From: Entophlyctis helioformis
Taxonomy: Eukaryota; Chytridiomycota; Chytridiomycetes; Chytridiales; Chytriomycetaceae
DNA length: 64,000 nucleotides
Direction of reading: 5' to 3'
Assembly: GCA_025526915.1 (NCBI GenBank)
Contig: JAHLKH010000093.1
Span: 1 to 64,000, forward strand
The notes below the pieces were generated by a model, which saw nothing but the letters and a program-made list of their open reading frames with translations, was not told the origin of the DNA and did not search any database. Of the stretch, positions 1-7,551 are shown piece by piece. The translations under genes were made by a program, and so were the position numbers. Position 1 is the stretch's first letter. The number at the start of each line of letters is the position of its first letter.

Positions 1-2
1 AC

Positions 3-3000
3 CCCAAGTCGCAGCAAGGCAACCCCCATCCCAACATTGTGCACCTGACGCAGAAGGATATCGACTGGCACATCAAGAAGATTGTCAAGACAAGGCAAAT
101 GGATGCTACCTTTCTCAATGTCAAGCAATGTCCGATTGCATTCGACTGCATTGTCAAGCACGTGCCAGGTTACCTCGCTCGCAACCCCGATGGAGTCGCA
201 GGCCGTGACATTCTGGCGACGATCAGCAGGACGGCAAGTTTGCAACTTTTAGAGATTGCCGCGAGAAGTCTCAAGTAGCGGTAGTGCGCGCAGAGCTTGG
301 TCGACTTGATCGGTTTGTTTGGGACACACATGTACGTTATGGCATGACTTGGATGCATGTGCATTTCTCACCTTGAAGTGTCTAACTCAATCCACTGTGC
401 ATTGGACAGGGCGCCGCTCGGAGGATGACGAATCAGTTGGGCAAGATTCTGGATCCTAAAGGTTCATCCTTCCAGAATCTGTCAACTCCACGTACGTTTG
501 GCTTGCATTGGAATGACTCGATGCCATGTACTGACAGCAGCCTTTTTGCCGAATGTGCTATTCCAGAACCAAAACCGCAGCCAGGCATGCAGCAAGTCAA
601 GCAAAAGCCCAAGCAGCAAGGCAAGGTCATCAACCAAGCTGATCTCCATGAATTCTCGGCCAAGAACCGCAAAAAGGCCAGAAAAAAGCTCAAGGCCCTG
701 GGACGCATCATGGATGACCAATCAGTGACGCTTGTCAAGCAGCTGAAAGAGGCCACCGAGATGCTATTTTTGATCATCAATCAACCCTCGGTGCGTCTTC
801 ATCTTGACTGTCTGTGTGTGCATGTACTGACTTGGTGCGATCACTCATTTCTCCAATTGGCAGGCGGCTCCATCTAGAAAGCGGCACAAGCGGCATAAGC
901 GACCACAGCCATCTGTTGACGCTCAGGTGGAAGAAGTACAACCCGTGGTCTTTTCTCTCAATCGACATTTAGACACCAAGACGACGGTTAGTTCTGATGT
1001 ACCATTGGCGCTTGCGTATGCATTGTGTGCACTCGGAATGCATTGCTCATGCTGCATCCAACCTCCACAGCCACGACTTCAATTCACAAAGAAGCAGGAG
1101 GCCGCGCTCATGAAGAGTAGCACATTGCAAGCTGCAAAGGCCGCGACACTGAAGGCCATCAAGGCCAACAAGGGAAAGTCGAGCCGGTTTGCCCGCAGTA
1201 GTTTGCCTGCTGGCACGAGACATGGGTAAGTGATGTATGCTGTGCCATTTGCCTTGAGTACTCTTGCTGACATGCGTGTTTTGGCAGAATCGTGCTTCGC
1301 TCACGATGGGCACTACATCTGCTGATTGAAAGCTGGGTCGCATTGTTACAGGGCCACTCATGTCGCTCTCTGCGGCGATCGGCAGCAATGATCAACAAAC
1401 AGCAGAGCAAGCAACCAATCAATCTGCTGTGGATGCGCCAGATCAGCCTGCCGTGGACGAGCCTGATCATTGTGGCGCGAGAGTGCTGCTTGAGGTATGG
1501 TTTAGGATCGCCATTCTGCCTGCATGTATGGCTTTGCATGGACTGACTCAGAGGTTGGCGTGGTGCGCAGAAAATGTTGTCGGGCGATCCAGGAAGCACC
1601 AAGGTCTATGGCATTGAAGCCAGGAAGACACCAAAGAAATGGACGCGGCGTCTGATCATCGAGGACACATTCGCAAAGGTGTACTCGTTCATCGTCGGTC
1701 TTCGGCATGCTGGGTTCGTCGTGATTGGCGCCATCGTCGAAGAGCTACTCGATCTTGTCCCGGATGCCCGCTCCCGCCCAAGTACCACGTCTACAAGTGG
1801 ATCGATGGCAAGACGACGCGGTATTGTTTCTTGGACCTGGACTTCAAGGGCATCGACAACCTCGGCGACCATGCCAGCATCGACGGCCTCGGCGGCGTGA
1901 CCAAGGCGGAGCTCTTCTCGGGTCGATTCACCCTCGGAAAGGACATCACTGTCCGCCTCATGTACGGCTCGAGTTTGTACAATCACAAGAGCAAGAAGCC
2001 TCGGTATGGCCATCCGGTGCAACTGGCGACGGGTACAAGACTCGAGCGTGTTATGTTTGAGAAGGTCGAGAAGCCCAAGACAGCCGAGGAGTCAAAGGAC
2101 GCAGAGCAGCATGAGGATGCCGAGGACGCCGAGGATGCTGAGGACGCCGAGGATGCCGATATTCACGAGCAGCCTGACGATCACAAGAAACCTGACGAGC
2201 CTCAGCAGCCTGATCAGCCTGCAGCAGCAGCACCAACAGTGCCGACATCCAACCAGCTGTTCACGGCACTCATCAACAGCACCTCGGGTGGTGAGACAAC
2301 TGTGGCCTGCATCTTTCGCCACCTGTCGTTCATTTTCACCGGCAAGGAGATGGCCAAGCCGCAGCATGACATGGACACGACCAACGCGTGGGTCGTCACT
2401 GTCATGCAGTTGATGATCCACCGCGCATGGACGCGTGGGATGGTGCAGGCCAGTGCGGACAAGATGTACGCGGACAAGAATGGCGCGCAGCAGGCCGACA
2501 CAATCCAGACGGACATGCAGGAGGACGTCACGTATCAGGCAGCTCTACCATACCGCCTGGACAACACTCTCTGTGGGAGCGCGACGAATGACATCTTCAA
2601 CAACCTCGCCAGAGAGGTGAGCACCATACTCGCGCGGCACTACATTGCAAGTCAGGTCGACCTGGCGGTTGGTGCAGCCATCAAGCTTGCTCCCGGAATG
2701 TCTCGCGAGCAGGCGAAAGAGTTGGTTCAATCCCTGTTCGATGAAGCCGATGCCGCCAAGGCTGCTGCTGCCAAAGCCACCAAGGCTGCTGCTGCCAAAG
2801 CCACCAAGGCTCCTGCTGCCAAGGACACCGCGCCAAGACCATCGGCGGCCAAGAGAGGGAGACAAACGAATGTGGCGTCAAGCACTGAGGACGCCGCGTC
2901 AAGCCCGACGCAACCCAAGAGAGCAAGGCGCAAGAGTGCAGCCCAAACCCATCGTCGGCCGGTCTTGACACCACCCCTCCTGCAGCAAGCAACAAGAGAG

Positions 3001-5602
3001 GCCAGTCAGGCTCATCGTCGGCCACTGACAGGAGCGGCGCGACCAAGAAGGCACGCGGCAAGAAGCCGGCCGCCAAGGACGCCGCAGGGAACAAGAGTGC
3101 TATCGTAACCCCGCCAGCATTGCACAAGCTCGTGGCCATCATACGCAACATGTCGCTGTCGACTGTTGGACGCTTCAAGCAGCTGCGCGATCTCGCTGGA
3201 AGAGAGAGCATCAAGCTCTGTCCTCAAGCGGCAAGTCGTGATCCCTTTGTTCTGATCACCGAGACCGTCCTCTTCTGGGCGGTTATGGGGCTGAAAAGGG
3301 ATCGCACCAGCAAGTCACAAGATCCGTCTTGCGAGCATTGAGACTGGAGCTTCTTGCTGCAATAAGTCAGTCACACTGCCTGTCTATGCCATCTTTTTAT
3401 GATTTGATGCTAACAATCCACTCTTCTCAAAGAGCCTGGCTGGCTTCTAAAAAAGCTTAAATGGAAAGACTCGGAGCTTGCATTGCCCAATGACAAGATC
3501 GACAAGGCGTTCAGTTCAAGTGACGAGCTGTGCGTCATGGATCTCCTGCTTCCGGGTCTCGCCTCCGATACACGGCGCTATCAAACGCCAGCACAGGCCA
3601 AGTTGCAGATTGACCCAGCCGACACCGTGGAAGAGGCCAGAGCAACTCCTGATGTGACACAAGAAGCCAAGGCTGACGATCTTCAACTGGACGACAAGCA
3701 GTCGGCGGACTTGATCAAGGCCAAGGTTGATGCTCTTCCTCAAGTGCTACCAACCAAGTCGGTCAGATTTGGCAGCATCAAGACCGACGGGAAGAGTGTC
3801 TTTCAAACTGTTCTGGAGTTTCGCACAAACCGTCCAAAGTCACCTCGCAGTATGTGGCGTGCTTGGATGCTGTGGTGCACGCATTGATTCTGACCACTGC
3901 CTTGCTCTGCAGGTCCCAACGCGGCGACTTCAGACGAGCAGCCCAGTCACGTTGAGGATGCTGATGACTCTGATTCTGATGATGACTTGGATGATGACTT
4001 GGATGATGATGACTTGGATGATGATGGGCATGATGGGCATGATCACTTGGATGGCGAATGTGAGTTGCTGTGCCAATCCAGACGCGCACTTGTTGTCCAC
4101 ACCGACTGACATGCCATCCACAGCCGCCAATCCAGCCAACCCGTCAGCCACCAAGCCATACATACCCAATCCTGTAAGCCACTTGCATGCTAAACTCGCG
4201 CATTGGTGCACATGCATTGCACATTCCTCACTCATGCCATGGCATGACAGGTCAAGCGCAACTTTTACGCCTCGCAGCGACTGCCCGATGTTGCTGATGC
4301 CAACAAGCTGCTCGCCGACAAGGACTTTGTTCGCGTTGTCAGCTTTGATTGGGGCGAAAGGTACCTGTTTGGCGCGTCCAGCATGCTGGTCAATGTCAAG
4401 GAGGAGACATACACGCTCGAGTCCAACTACGTGCTCTCCTCTGGCGTATTTCATGCTGAGCGCATCTTTCAGCGGTGGTATGCATGCAATGCCTCTGCCA
4501 CGCGCACTCTTGACCAGATCAACTCACAGTGCCTGCCTCTTGTGTCAGGCTCAACAATCGATATGCCAAGGCTGCTGACGTCCACGAGGCCATTGCATTC
4601 AAGACAGCAAAGCATGCCGATCCAGCCGTCTCAGCAGGCGAGAGAGCCTTTTGGGATCTGCGCTGCCATGCGTACTGCACGCCATTCCTGAATGCACAGG
4701 TACGTTTTCCCTGTTTCTGGATGCCCATTGACACGGCCGCCATACTGCTTGATCGCCTGCTGATTGCACTGCATGGCATGGCATGGCATGGCATTCCACA
4801 GAAGGTCAAGGACAAGCGGTTTGCCATGCGCTGCAAGCGCATGTCTGATCGCGGACAGGCTCTTGAGGGCATCATGAAGCTGGCAGGATCGAAGACTAGA
4901 TATCGCGCATCCGATGCATCTCAAGGCCTCCCTGTCGCAACCCTGAGAAGGACATTCCCGTTGTTGGGCATTTGGCATCGACTTTACAGGCCAAGGTGGC
5001 CGGCACGCTGTGTTTGAGAAGTTTCTCATCAGGCATCTGCGGTCGTCTGGATATGCCTATGTGCGTCTGATGCCACACTGTCGATCCATCCATCCATCTG
5101 TGCACCAACTGACACACGATCATGCACACACACAGATCTACCGCTGCAACGAGAACCTGACCAGCCAGATGTGCCCGCAGTGTAAGCAGCGGATCCCATA
5201 CGAGAACCGCACCAACCTGCGACGCTACGAGTGCATACCATGCAAGACTGTCTACCACCGCGATGTGCTTGGAGCCACCAACATCGGAATGGTTGCACTG
5301 GAGCATCTGCTTTTGGACAACGGCCGCTCTACTTGACGCACACGCCAGTCGATCCGCCTGTCGTCCAGCAGCCTCCAGCACCAGATCCGCCTGTCGTCCA
5401 GCAGCATTCTAGACACGCCATCAAGCGGCGTCCAGCACCGGATCCGCCTGTCGTCCAGCTGCCTCTAGCACCGGATCCGCCTGTTGACCAGCAGCGTCCA
5501 ACACGCAGACAGCGTGCCAGCAAGTCAAGTGCCACTCCACGTGCTCTGACTTCCAGCACAACCACCAACACTTTGAATCGGGGCACCTCCCGATCGACCT
5601 AA
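3..5602 (+). CDS. Fanzor (eukaryotic TnpB-like RNA-guided nuclease), 5'-partial
   Basis: Multi-exon gene already open at the window edge. Fanzors are eukaryotic relatives of IS200/IS605 TnpB, carried by transposons and acting as RNA-guided DNA nucleases. Seen in order: a basic, Lys/Ala-rich N-terminal half (Asp/Glu repeat near 2107-2160, Lys-Ala repeats 2755-2829); a GSIKTDGKSVFQ block (3767-3822) as found before the nuclease domain; RuvC-I FDWGERYLFG with Asp codon 4347-4349; FGIDFTGQGGRH (4971-5006); CNENLTSQMCPQC (about 5145-5183) and YECIPC (to 5243) forming the C4 zinc ribbon; HRDVLGATNIG with RuvC-III Asp codon 5262-5264. This fits the TnpB/Fanzor pattern D...[TS][TS]xxC4...RD. Introns are clear, e.g. 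donors at 345, 563, 781, 987, 3840 and 4080. The frame breaks near 230, 1350, 1770, 2945, 3340, 4967 and 5334, each equivalent to one missing base. Family assignment is strong; intactness is unproven. Confidence 0.82.
2755..2829 (+). repeat. coding Lys-Ala tandem repeat inside the Fanzor gene
   Basis: Three near-identical 24-27 nt units encode Ala/Lys/Thr repeats (AAAAKATK type) in the N-terminal half of the Fanzor protein, followed by further Lys/Arg-rich sequence to about 3080. Such a basic, probably disordered stretch could bind nucleic acid or act as a nuclear localisation signal. That role is inference from composition only. Confidence 0.7.
5340..5500 (+). repeat. imperfect tandem repeat encoding a PDPPVVQ-type tail
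   Basis: Four imperfect units of about 33-45 bp share a core gatccgcctgtcgtccag. The frame just after the apparent Fanzor stop (5334) reads them as DPPVVQQ, PDPPVVQQ, PDPPVVQL and PDPPVDQQ, then a basic Ser/Thr tail ending at 5602. Conservation at the peptide level, and the fact that one missing base would join this frame to the Fanzor frame, suggest it is the protein's C-terminal tail rather than 3' UTR. It is not a CRISPR array: the units are adjacent and diverged. Confidence 0.6.
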
Positions 5603-5853
5603 CGGGTCACTTTATCACATCATTATTCAAACAATGGTGCAAGGTGAGCATCTCGATGGATGTGCCACGCCCGCCTGTCGTCGCATGTTCTTTGCTGACT
5701 CGAACCTTCCATCGTGTGATGTGCTCGCTTGCATTCGACGCTTCTCGGGTCGAATCCAATTCCAAAACGCTTGGTAATTGTTTGAATGTCGGGCCATTTG
5801 CCGGCGGTTTGCCGGCATTCCCTCGCCCTATTGCCCACCCCTTCAAGATCGAA

Positions 5854-7551
5854 ATGCTGTCGCCGCTGTCGCTCTTTGGCAAGACCTCGTCGAGCGACAC
5901 TCTCGAGGCGTACCCGCTGCGTCTGGCCACGTCTGCGTCGGGCTCTGCCGCCAGCGCTGCGGGCGCCGCAAAGTCTGCGCTGGCCGGGCCCGCGGGCTCT
6001 GCAGCCGGCGCCGTGGGCAGCAGCGCCAAGAGCGCCGCCGCAAGCCTCGGCCTGTTTGACGACGAGGAGACCAACTGGCCGGCCTTTGCCATCCAGCACT
6101 ACCTCGAGGCGCTGCTGGTGTCGCCGCTGCTGGTCGTCGAGACGCTGACGGACGTGCAGTTCCAGAAGCGCATCGACACGCCGTACGAGGTGGGCCGCCC
6201 TGCCTCTTGCTCTGCACGCTGCTCGCTGGCTGTCCTGTCACTGTGACGCTGCTGGCGAGGATCTTGGCGTGCGCTGCCTCGTGGCTGCGTGCTGGCGTGG
6301 CGGGCGTGGCGGGCGTGCGGCTCGGTGCACTGACCGGCCGGCAATGCATGCGCAGGACGAGGCGTACGCTGGCTACGAGAACGTGCAGCCTGCGGGCACC
6401 GGCAGCCAGGCACTGCCTCTGTACCTGCCCGCATGAGCACCGACCTGTCCACCAACCTGCGCCGAATCACCGACAGCGAGCTCGAGGGCGTCAGCGGCTT
6501 GCTCAAGGGTGCGTCCTGCACGCATGGATGCCCTGCAGACGGATCTGCGCAGGCGGTACAGTCTGCCTGCCGACAGCGCTTGGGACTGACTCGGATGCTG
6601 CCCAACCAGGCCACTTCACCGAGTCCATCTTCCGCGGCTCGTTTGCCATCATCCAGCCAGGCATCGAAGAGTTCATGAATGACATGCTGGATGTCTTTGA
6701 AGACGTCAATCCCGCCACCCGCATCATCAGTCACGCCGTGGCTGGCGCTGTGCTCAGTCCGCTGGAGCTCGTCCGCACTCGGTAGGTGCACATGCCGTTG
6801 ATGGCTGCCGCTTCTGTCCGCCGGCAGCCTAACCCTTGATCGCCGCAGATTGATTGTGCAGGCATCAAGCTCGGCCAGAAGACGCTACTACGGCCCGATC
6901 CACGCGCTCTACGCCATCGCAAACGAGGAGCGTCCATCGCCTTCGACGGGATCGCTGTCGACGCTCTACTCTCCACGCATCCTCATCCCCTCGATCCTCA
7001 TCCACTCGCTTGGCCCATTCGTGCGCTTCTTCTCTGCGCGCATCATTGCCGACGAGCTCGGCTTGGATCCCGACTTTACACCCATGATGTACCGTCTCGC
7101 CACGCTCGGCTTCCTGGCCATCGAGTCTGCAATCCTGGCGCCGCTCGAGATGGCCCGCAAGCGTCTGCAGGTGCAGCGTCTGGACGCCTTCCGCTCGTCG
7201 CCCAACCCAGCCAACCCCTCGGGGTCTCGCGTGCAGTCGTTTGAGACGACCGTCGAGACGTCTGGCACGCCGTACACGGGCATCATGCACTGCCTTGGCT
7301 CCATCATTGCGGAAGAGGGCGGCAACAGATCGGTGCTCAAGAAACGCAACGTCAACACGAACCTGTCGGCAGCCGACTGGCAGGACGTGTATGGCGGCGG
7401 TGCCCCGCAAAGCGCACCGACGGGCATGTGGGCGTCCATGACGCGACTCAGCAAGGGTCTGAGCACGCTGTACCGTGGATTCTGGGCACACTACGCATCG
7501 ACGGTTGTCTTGTATGTGTCGAGCGAGATTGCAAAGGACGATGGATGGTAG
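5854..7551 (+). CDS. UGO1: UGO1/SLC25A46-like mitochondrial outer-membrane fusion protein
   Basis: Degenerate mitochondrial-carrier-type protein. The carrier signature appears twice in modified form: SPLELVRTRLIVQA (exon junction 6781/6849) and APLEMARKRLQVQ (about 7138-7176). In yeast, Ugo1 links the fusion GTPases Fzo1 and Mgm1 on the outer membrane; the animal relative is SLC25A46. Exons: 5854-6189, 6356-6508, 6610-6781, 6849-7551. The N-terminal region is Ala/Gly/Ser-rich, then ETNWPAFAIQHYLEALLVSPLL. The second exon needs one extra base near 6430 (gcatgagc) to stay open, and the summed exon length is one base short of a multiple of three. In-frame ATGs further upstream (5656, 5719) are possible starts; 5854 was chosen because the conserved part begins there. 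It lies in tandem with the STRAP-like gene. Confidence 0.72.

Follow-up and report, generated by a model that had tools for sequence, protein, structure and literature searches.

The 64,000-nucleotide (nt) window analysed here, positions 1 to 64,000 of contig JAHLKH010000093.1 from the chytrid fungus Entophlyctis helioformis, begins inside a copy of a DNA transposon that encodes a Fanzor-type RNA-guided nuclease. The window copy is the 3′ portion of one element and belongs to a transposon family dispersed through this genome. We consider it probable that it is a truncated, frame-broken member of a recently active family whose Fanzor1-type and FEN-like nucleases would serve a guide-directed cycle of breakage and copying. 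A first-pass annotation had described positions 3–5602 as a multi-exon Fanzor gene that might be mobile and that, if its apparent one-base gaps were sequence errors, would be an intact, large fungal Fanzor.

The Fanzor part comprises seven exons (3433–5602) that splice on shared GT..AG borders, with a TAA stop codon at 5600–5602 (Table 1). Its assignment to a fungal, multi-exon member of the Fanzor/TnpB family is borne out by motifs, a PF07282 match and exon borders common to the copies. The RuvC-I aspartate codon (GAT, 4347–4349), the zinc-ribbon cysteine codons (5172–5174, 5181–5183, 5232–5234 and 5241–5243) and the RuvC-III Arg-Asp codons (5259–5264) lie where the annotation had placed them, and the acidic, Lys-Ala and Pro-Val stretches and the multi-exon layout that it described are also found. 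Twenty further copies were fetched for their long frames and are therefore not a random sample; 18 of them align over the module, L017 and L023 being fragments. Eleven of the 20 are open from a TDG motif through the ribbon and the RuvC-III RD; the other nine, both fragments included, are not open in the module, nor is the window copy. In an alignment of six of the open copies (A4), T11, D12 and G13 of the TDG motif are invariant in all six rows, the C4 ribbon and RD are kept in every row, and the residues match the Bao and Jurka motif, D-X(125,275)-[TS][TS]-X-X-C4-X(5,50)-RD (row 1: D66; T255, S256; C259, C262, C279, C282; R288, D289). An alternative RuvC-II glutamate, E252, six residues ahead of ribbon C259, is likewise invariant in six of six rows. 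According to PMC10711439, a TDG motif in the WED domain characterises Fanzor1, and DPG is near-exclusive to Fanzors. By sequence, the motif set is that of Fanzor1 apart from a DWG at RuvC-I, and the encoded protein would be a divergent Fanzor1-type nuclease with an alternative-glutamate RuvC domain and a zinc ribbon, for which cleavage activity is predicted.

A profile check for a TnpB-type ribbon, suggested in the annotation, matched exon 4947–5333 to Pfam PF07282 (4.6e-10, 40 bits, cut-off 26.3), and PF07282 also scored above its cut-off in six of six family members. TnpB models of NCBIfam matched far below their cut-offs (best 9.6e-6), and Cas12 models of PADLOC matched at best at 2.6e-7. 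Solved structures were matched weakly by sequence (E at least 0.44), with TnpB-type nucleases in nine of the ten matches listed; the Fanzor-part profile gave a single weak TnpB-like match in the PDB (E 0.47) and no clear relative there, and found no relative in viral contigs. A 949-residue Fanzor query gave no match among the 7997 candidates listed, a list perhaps swamped by low-complexity words. Only one of four database candidates contains the ribbon exon, the E. helioformis protein BC831DRAFT_121329, which is 98–99% identical to contig C214. Exon dN/dS among the 11 open copies is 0.37–0.65.

Window base 1 is the first base of the contig (C93), which truncates the copy on its left. Sister copies extend further 5′ with an additional domain, so 3–5602 is not a whole gene. 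Nor is it intact: after splicing on its own exon borders, the window copy has stops in the RuvC and ribbon exons. Two fetched copies, L018 and L011, are 94–95% identical to it over nearly its full extent; through the exons broken here, L018 is open and L011 is not. The breaks may be mutations or sequence errors. The long basic N terminus noted in the annotation belongs to a larger coding region; the 5′ part of that region, which includes a FEN-like nuclease domain, lies outside the window. The equivalent of 1618–3341 shows codon-like conservation between subfamilies, and the corresponding piece of a sister copy matched no Pfam family above cut-off. The annotation had also seen no inverted repeat in the window; a terminal inverted repeat lies just beyond its stated gene end, at 5773–5795, with an extension to 5841.

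The suspected mobility is backed by terminal repeats, target duplications and copy number. A PF07282 scan of the assembly (29.57 Mb, 482 contigs) gave at least 150 C-terminal matches among 205 candidates, all 150 above cut-off. In most copies the main-type right end breaks off sharply at ...GGTAATTGTATGAATATCGGGCC or a close variant of it, and the left end, GGCCCGGTTCTCATACCATTACC, has 86 genome matches with up to three mismatches, two of which are rather right ends read backwards; backward controls for the right-end, left-end and W-type extension patterns gave 0 each. Main-type elements carry 23-bp inverted repeats that pair at 19 of 23 bases between left and right. Twenty left and right ends could be paired by place, giving elements of 7.2–9.7 kb with longer spans excluded. 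An 8-bp target duplication with at least seven matching bases flanks 11 of these 20 pairs (six perfectly), whereas deliberately mismatched ends reach this in 5 of 380 combinations. Because the flanks of pairs 15 and 18 are the same, the count of independent cases is slightly lower. Right ends of the W-type subfamily, to which the window copy belongs, are 46 nt longer than those of the main type, and W-type left ends resemble the inverted right-end extension. Some copies are 96–98% identical over 2–5 kb, which indicates recent spread.

Individual copies show further features. The W-type left end (L095–L100, L015) is GAGGGGYRGGCAATT-like and unlike that of the main type, yet accompanies the same Fanzor module; L015 itself is apparently a short element with an internal deletion. 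The element comprising L032 and L022 (C69, reverse strand) is interrupted by about 6.6 kb between short repeats also seen near other copies, probably a long terminal repeat (LTR)-type insertion. Host flank on one or both sides is common to C141 and C176 (L061, L062) and to C272 and C18 (L069, L072), which suggests segmental duplication or insertion into repeated genes. A rule that elements insert just ahead of host start codons, always in the same orientation, was suggested by some right flanks but rejected: a crude test gave 27 of 38, where control pieces gave 32 of 54, and several flanks look by eye like convergent gene ends. Within the element, a KDZ transposase was not found, and a hAT transposase gave no match, though its control was also silent. 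KDZ transposase gene fragments occur elsewhere in the genome (four matches, on C334, C271 and C396).

Sequence divergence is distributed unevenly along the element. Among 19 copies (171 pairs, two fragments left out), mean identity is 0.68 (minimum 0.48) over 3110–3850 and 0.908 (minimum 0.879) over 4251–5330, and even the 149 pairs with less than 0.75 identity over the former reach 0.88–0.94 in the module. Introns within 4174–5336 have mean identities of 0.925–0.965 and exons 0.824–0.943; just upstream of 4174 the intron means are 0.88 and 0.914 and the exon means 0.69 and 0.74. In a linkage test of 22 copies, three further copies being too short, r2 in the module falls from 0.415 within 20 bp to 0.06–0.15 at longer distances, the fraction of four-gamete pairs climbs from 0.31 to a maximum of 0.95, and the distance trend was matched by 0 of 1000 permutations. 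Adding five more copies gave the same outcome. The Fanzor 3′ module, introns included, is homogenised between divergent subfamilies, and these patterns speak for exchange between copies. The RuvC-I exon (4251–4477) is more variable, even at synonymous sites (pi 0.172, pS 0.265), than the intron that follows it (4478–4548, 0.059). Its variation falls into blocks, each with a few alternative forms whose distribution suggests shuffling between copies. That the module introns might be mobile introns of other genes was rejected: across 20 loci and the window they are confined to the copies apart from pieces of 18–38 nt.

Upstream of the Fanzor part, sister copies encode a FEN/EXO1-like domain. Of 49 such loci, 41 have a downstream Fanzor match or right end, the two parts lying on one strand in fixed order. 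Acidic residues D55, E135, D137, D163, D165 and D223 are invariant in seven of seven rows, and D5 in the six rows that reach it; we take these seven to be the FEN/XPG active-site positions. The Pfam family XPG_I_2 matched the best row of alignment A1 at 4.2e-5, and Foldseek with VIA-align ranked EXO1 first, followed by FEN1, XPG, T4 RNase H, T5 FEN and XRN/Rat1. The domain profile found no relative in viral contigs. The identification draws on sequence together with a low-confidence fold, and suggests that many copies carry an EXO1/FEN-like 5′ nuclease domain, either in the same gene as the Fanzor or in one of two adjacent genes.

The last 210–235 nt of the element are conserved in 38 copies (0.845; L024, with a mismatched right end, excluded). 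The reading frame leading into this stretch differs from copy to copy, which makes a constraint at the DNA or RNA level likely, and its alignment has a folding energy of z −2.9 relative to shuffled columns; Rfam gave one weak sub-cut-off match in window 1–6000 (sR5, E 0.77). Behind a conserved donor-like motif, a tail of about 147 nt contains 0.08 AG dinucleotides per copy against 5.99 expected, with GA as expected, and 33 of 36 copies lack AG altogether. The observed-to-expected AG ratio is 0.01 in the tail, 0.92–1.39 in exons, 1.0 in host flank, and 0, 0.46, 0.02, 0.77, 0.07 and 0 in the six introns of the element. At 30 of 40 ends of the main type, and at 11 of 16 of the W-type, the first 8 nt of host DNA contain an AG. 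Together these are 41 of 56, compared with a fraction of 0.36 for control windows (p 1.6e-8), after five of 61 flanks had been removed as near-duplicates. The last 147 nt look like an intron without an acceptor, whose AG would be supplied by the landing site, with splicing as a candidate outcome. With the donor near the right end, splicing would take away no more than the end of the element, and the transcript would run on into host sequence; the conserved position of the donor speaks against removal of the whole element as an intron.

We infer a life cycle in which guide RNA, cleavage, resection and splicing would each have a part. The transcribed right end would become a guide-RNA scaffold with neighbouring host DNA as guide; the Fanzor part would cut the corresponding site that lacks the element, on the sister chromosome or the other allele; the 5′ nuclease part would trim or resect the break, and homologous repair would restore the element there. 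Recurrent breakage and repair involving different copies would homogenise the Fanzor module and its introns despite 5′ parts that are only 48–75% alike, and the right-end donor with its AG-free intron body, completed by a target AG, could let element transcripts splice into host sequence. For TnpB, a sister-chromosome break followed by copying through homologous recombination has been proposed, and excerpts of PMC10432273 extend this to Fanzors as a possibility, while calling the role of Fanzor for its transposon unknown. A FEN/EXO1-like domain would fit resection or flap removal, and the exchange signature would fit frequent breaks.

Several observations weigh against this reading. RuvC-I has DWG rather than DPG in six of six A4 rows and in all 11 open copies. 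XPG_I_2, the best family in six of seven gene models of the FEN-like domain, scores 15–17 bits against a cut-off of 24.2; the domain profile found no FEN relative among PDB sequences, and the fold match is weaker than it appears because model confidence is low (pLDDT 48.9, pTM 0.43). The 5′ control region for the linkage test has a flatter decay of r2, from 0.287 to 0.17, yet one matched by 0 of 500 permutations. Four-gamete pairs are numerous there too, and for 19 copies scored in both regions the minimum number of recombination events is 61 against 45 in the module, a larger count that arises because the control region is saturated. With this imperfect control, only the steepness of decay speaks for the module. 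A target duplication is not established for the W-type subfamily: among its ends judged by eye, C16 alone agrees at 7 of 8 bases, and this with one way of setting the ends. No transposase was recognised in the element pieces scanned, which cover only part of the element; one may be hidden in its middle part or act in trans. Covariation for a guide-RNA fold was not detected in 38 copies. At the right end, A-rich target preference accounts for part of the junction AG excess, AG-making tail changes are only mildly depleted (6 seen out of 60 possible, compared with 102 of 381 for the remaining changes), and GA-making changes are likewise low (6 of 48).

Two alternatives concern the module, and we regard both as improbable. 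If the copies were decayed relics, their motifs kept by descent and their 3′ similarity due to recent amplification of one master, the broken window copy, the nine non-open copies and a dN/dS only moderately below 1 would be expected; the 11 copies that remain open with RuvC-I, ribbon and RD, even among copies chosen for long frames, and the near-identity of some copies over kilobases argue otherwise, and a module shared across subfamilies with 5′ parts 48–75% identical cannot be explained by one recent master. Similarity of the module might instead reflect selection on protein, RNA and splicing rather than exchange, to which we give about the same small weight. Exon dN/dS is below 1, the terminal segment probably has an RNA or DNA function, and four of the six introns are AG-poor and therefore constrained in some way. 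Set against these points, introns within the module are at least as conserved as its exons, linkage between sites falls with distance, and pairs of copies rank oppositely in the two regions (L027/L012, 0.955 in the 5′ part and 0.895 in the module; L022/L012, 0.665 and 0.936).

The other two alternatives are more serious. The AG-free right end might be no intron, its composition reflecting ancestry, the inverted repeat or guide-RNA sequence and the adjacent AG an A-rich target preference of the transposase; we would put this somewhat below an even chance. All tails share common ancestry, AG-creating changes are only mildly depleted, target positions 2–5 are A-rich, and the position of the AG within the target varies. 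Against this alternative stand a donor AAGGTRAG in 36 of 38 right ends, a tail as poor in AG as four of the six element introns (0–0.07; the others 0.46 and 0.77) and a W-type extension without AG in 13 of 14 copies, where, however, no more than 0.92 is expected per copy. Almost as likely as not, in our estimate, the Fanzor and FEN-like parts are separate genes sharing a transposon, the FEN-like part serving excision or gap repair unrelated to RNA-guided cutting. A single protein with both parts is a candidate fusion, a continuous transcript across them is putative, and database gene models P0002–P0008 lack the Fanzor part; the shared strand and constant arrangement at 41 of 49 loci, and conserved coding stretches with no evident gap between them in the copies inspected, favour a closer link. 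A guide-directed break-and-copy cycle remains the reading we prefer.

Table 1 Features of the transposon copy in the window
Feature	Position	Strand	Evidence
Transposon copy, 3′ part, W-type subfamily	1–5841	+	Alignment to 20 fetched copies (L017 and L023 are fragments)
Coding region upstream of the Fanzor C-terminal part, with acidic and Lys-Ala stretches	1618–3341	+	Open reading frames; frames broken here
TDG-motif exon (TDG codons 3783–3791), Fanzor1 WED-domain signature	3433–3849	+	GT..AG borders common to copies
Acidic exon	3913–4059	+	GT..AG splice borders
Short exon	4124–4173	+	GT..AG splice borders
RuvC-I exon, FDWG, Asp codon 4347–4349	4251–4477	+	Splice borders, alignment, codon check
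Exon between RuvC-I and RuvC-II	4549–4699	+	GT..AG splice borders
Exon ahead of RuvC-II, frame-broken here	4802–5060	+	GT..AG splice borders
Exon with alternative RuvC-II Glu (5151–5153), C4 ribbon (5172–5243) and Arg-Asp (5259–5264)	5136–5602	+	PF07282; frame-broken here
Conserved 3′ terminal segment, candidate guide-RNA scaffold	5572–5795	+	38 copies, mean identity 0.845
Hairpin arms in terminal segment	5577–5582/5589–5594 and 5596–5599/5605–5608	+	Kept in 38/38, without covariation
5′ splice-site-like AAG/GTRAG, here AAGGTGAG	5641–5648	+	Conserved in 36/38 right ends
Candidate half-intron, GTGAG in element, first host AG 5846–5847	5644–5847	+	AG depletion of tail
Right terminal inverted repeat core	5773–5795	+	109 exact genome matches of degenerate pattern, control 0
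Right-end extension, W-type subfamily	5796–5841	+	91 genome matches of last 20 bases, up to 2 mismatches, control 0

Directly to the right of the element lies a gene at 5854–7551, whose product, from its look, is perhaps mitochondrial-carrier-like. Its ATG (5854–5856), the next after the candidate half-intron, opens the next reading frame in the window.

The elements share much with known systems, which we compare here through excerpts of the papers cited. Fanzor1 transposons (Spizellomyces SPu-1/SpuFz1, Cyanidioschyzon CMe-1A and Mucor MCi-2) have the Bao-Jurka motif, alternative glutamate and TDG in common with them (PMC3627910, PMC10711439), and SPu-1 likewise has inverted repeats (PMC3627910). 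High copy number and chimeric Fanzor families are already known: CMe-1A has about 150 copies, MCi-2 families are alike only in the Fanzor half, their 3′ parts (PMC3627910), and families with ‘hundreds of copies’ are described (PMC10711439). The Entophlyctis elements depart from known Fanzor1 at RuvC-I, where DWG replaces DPG, and in having a FEN/EXO1-like domain upstream, target duplications of 8 bp and an intron-like right end that lacks an acceptor, and the 20 paired elements (7.2–9.7 kb) are longer than SPu-1 (about 2.1 kb). The alternative glutamate and zinc ribbon are shared with IS607 TnpB and pro-Fanzors, and a D-hydrophobic-G RuvC-I is known in another clade of alternative-glutamate TnpBs (PMC10711439). 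Unlike IS607 TnpB and pro-Fanzors, the Entophlyctis Fanzor is eukaryotic and spliced, with no serine recombinase recognised in the pieces scanned. The upstream domain resembles FEN1, EXO1 and XPG in the set and order of acidic residues, in topology and in Foldseek and Pfam matches; unlike them, it is transposon-borne and too distant in sequence for Pfam cut-offs.

Some introners bring their own 5′ splice site and rely on target sequence for the 3′ splice site (PMC9860276). They resemble the Entophlyctis elements in element-borne donor, target-site AG and DNA transposition with terminal inverted repeats and target duplications (PMC9860276), but the Entophlyctis donor sits some 150 nt inside the right end and so would not splice out the whole element. 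IStrons, a group I intron joined to an IS element, also combine intron and transposon (PMC4227781), whereas here the candidate is a spliceosomal half-intron and Rfam found nothing group I-like in window 1–6000. Among the papers found, judged by titles and abstract openings, none describes a Fanzor element that carries a FEN-like domain or ends in an intron without acceptor, and none treats the Fanzors of E. helioformis.

One species thus holds at least 150 sibling matches, open and broken, with defined ends and a linked repair-type nuclease. Short-range exchange, strongest in the Fanzor module, is a measurable signature that a break-and-repair life cycle would predict. The acceptor-less right-end intron, if true, would bring a eukaryotic RNA-guided element into contact with the host splicing machinery in a new way. 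Bacterial IStrons can reportedly carry TnpB, with a conflict between splicing and guide RNA. It is possible, if rather unlikely, that the Entophlyctis family is a composite RNA-guided system in which a Fanzor1 and an EXO1/FEN-like nuclease act together in making and resecting breaks, constant gene conversion runs among at least 150 loci and a half-intron completed by a target AG competes with the guide RNA. Such a system would be a spliceosomal counterpart of the IStrons, with splicing set against guide RNA on one RNA end.
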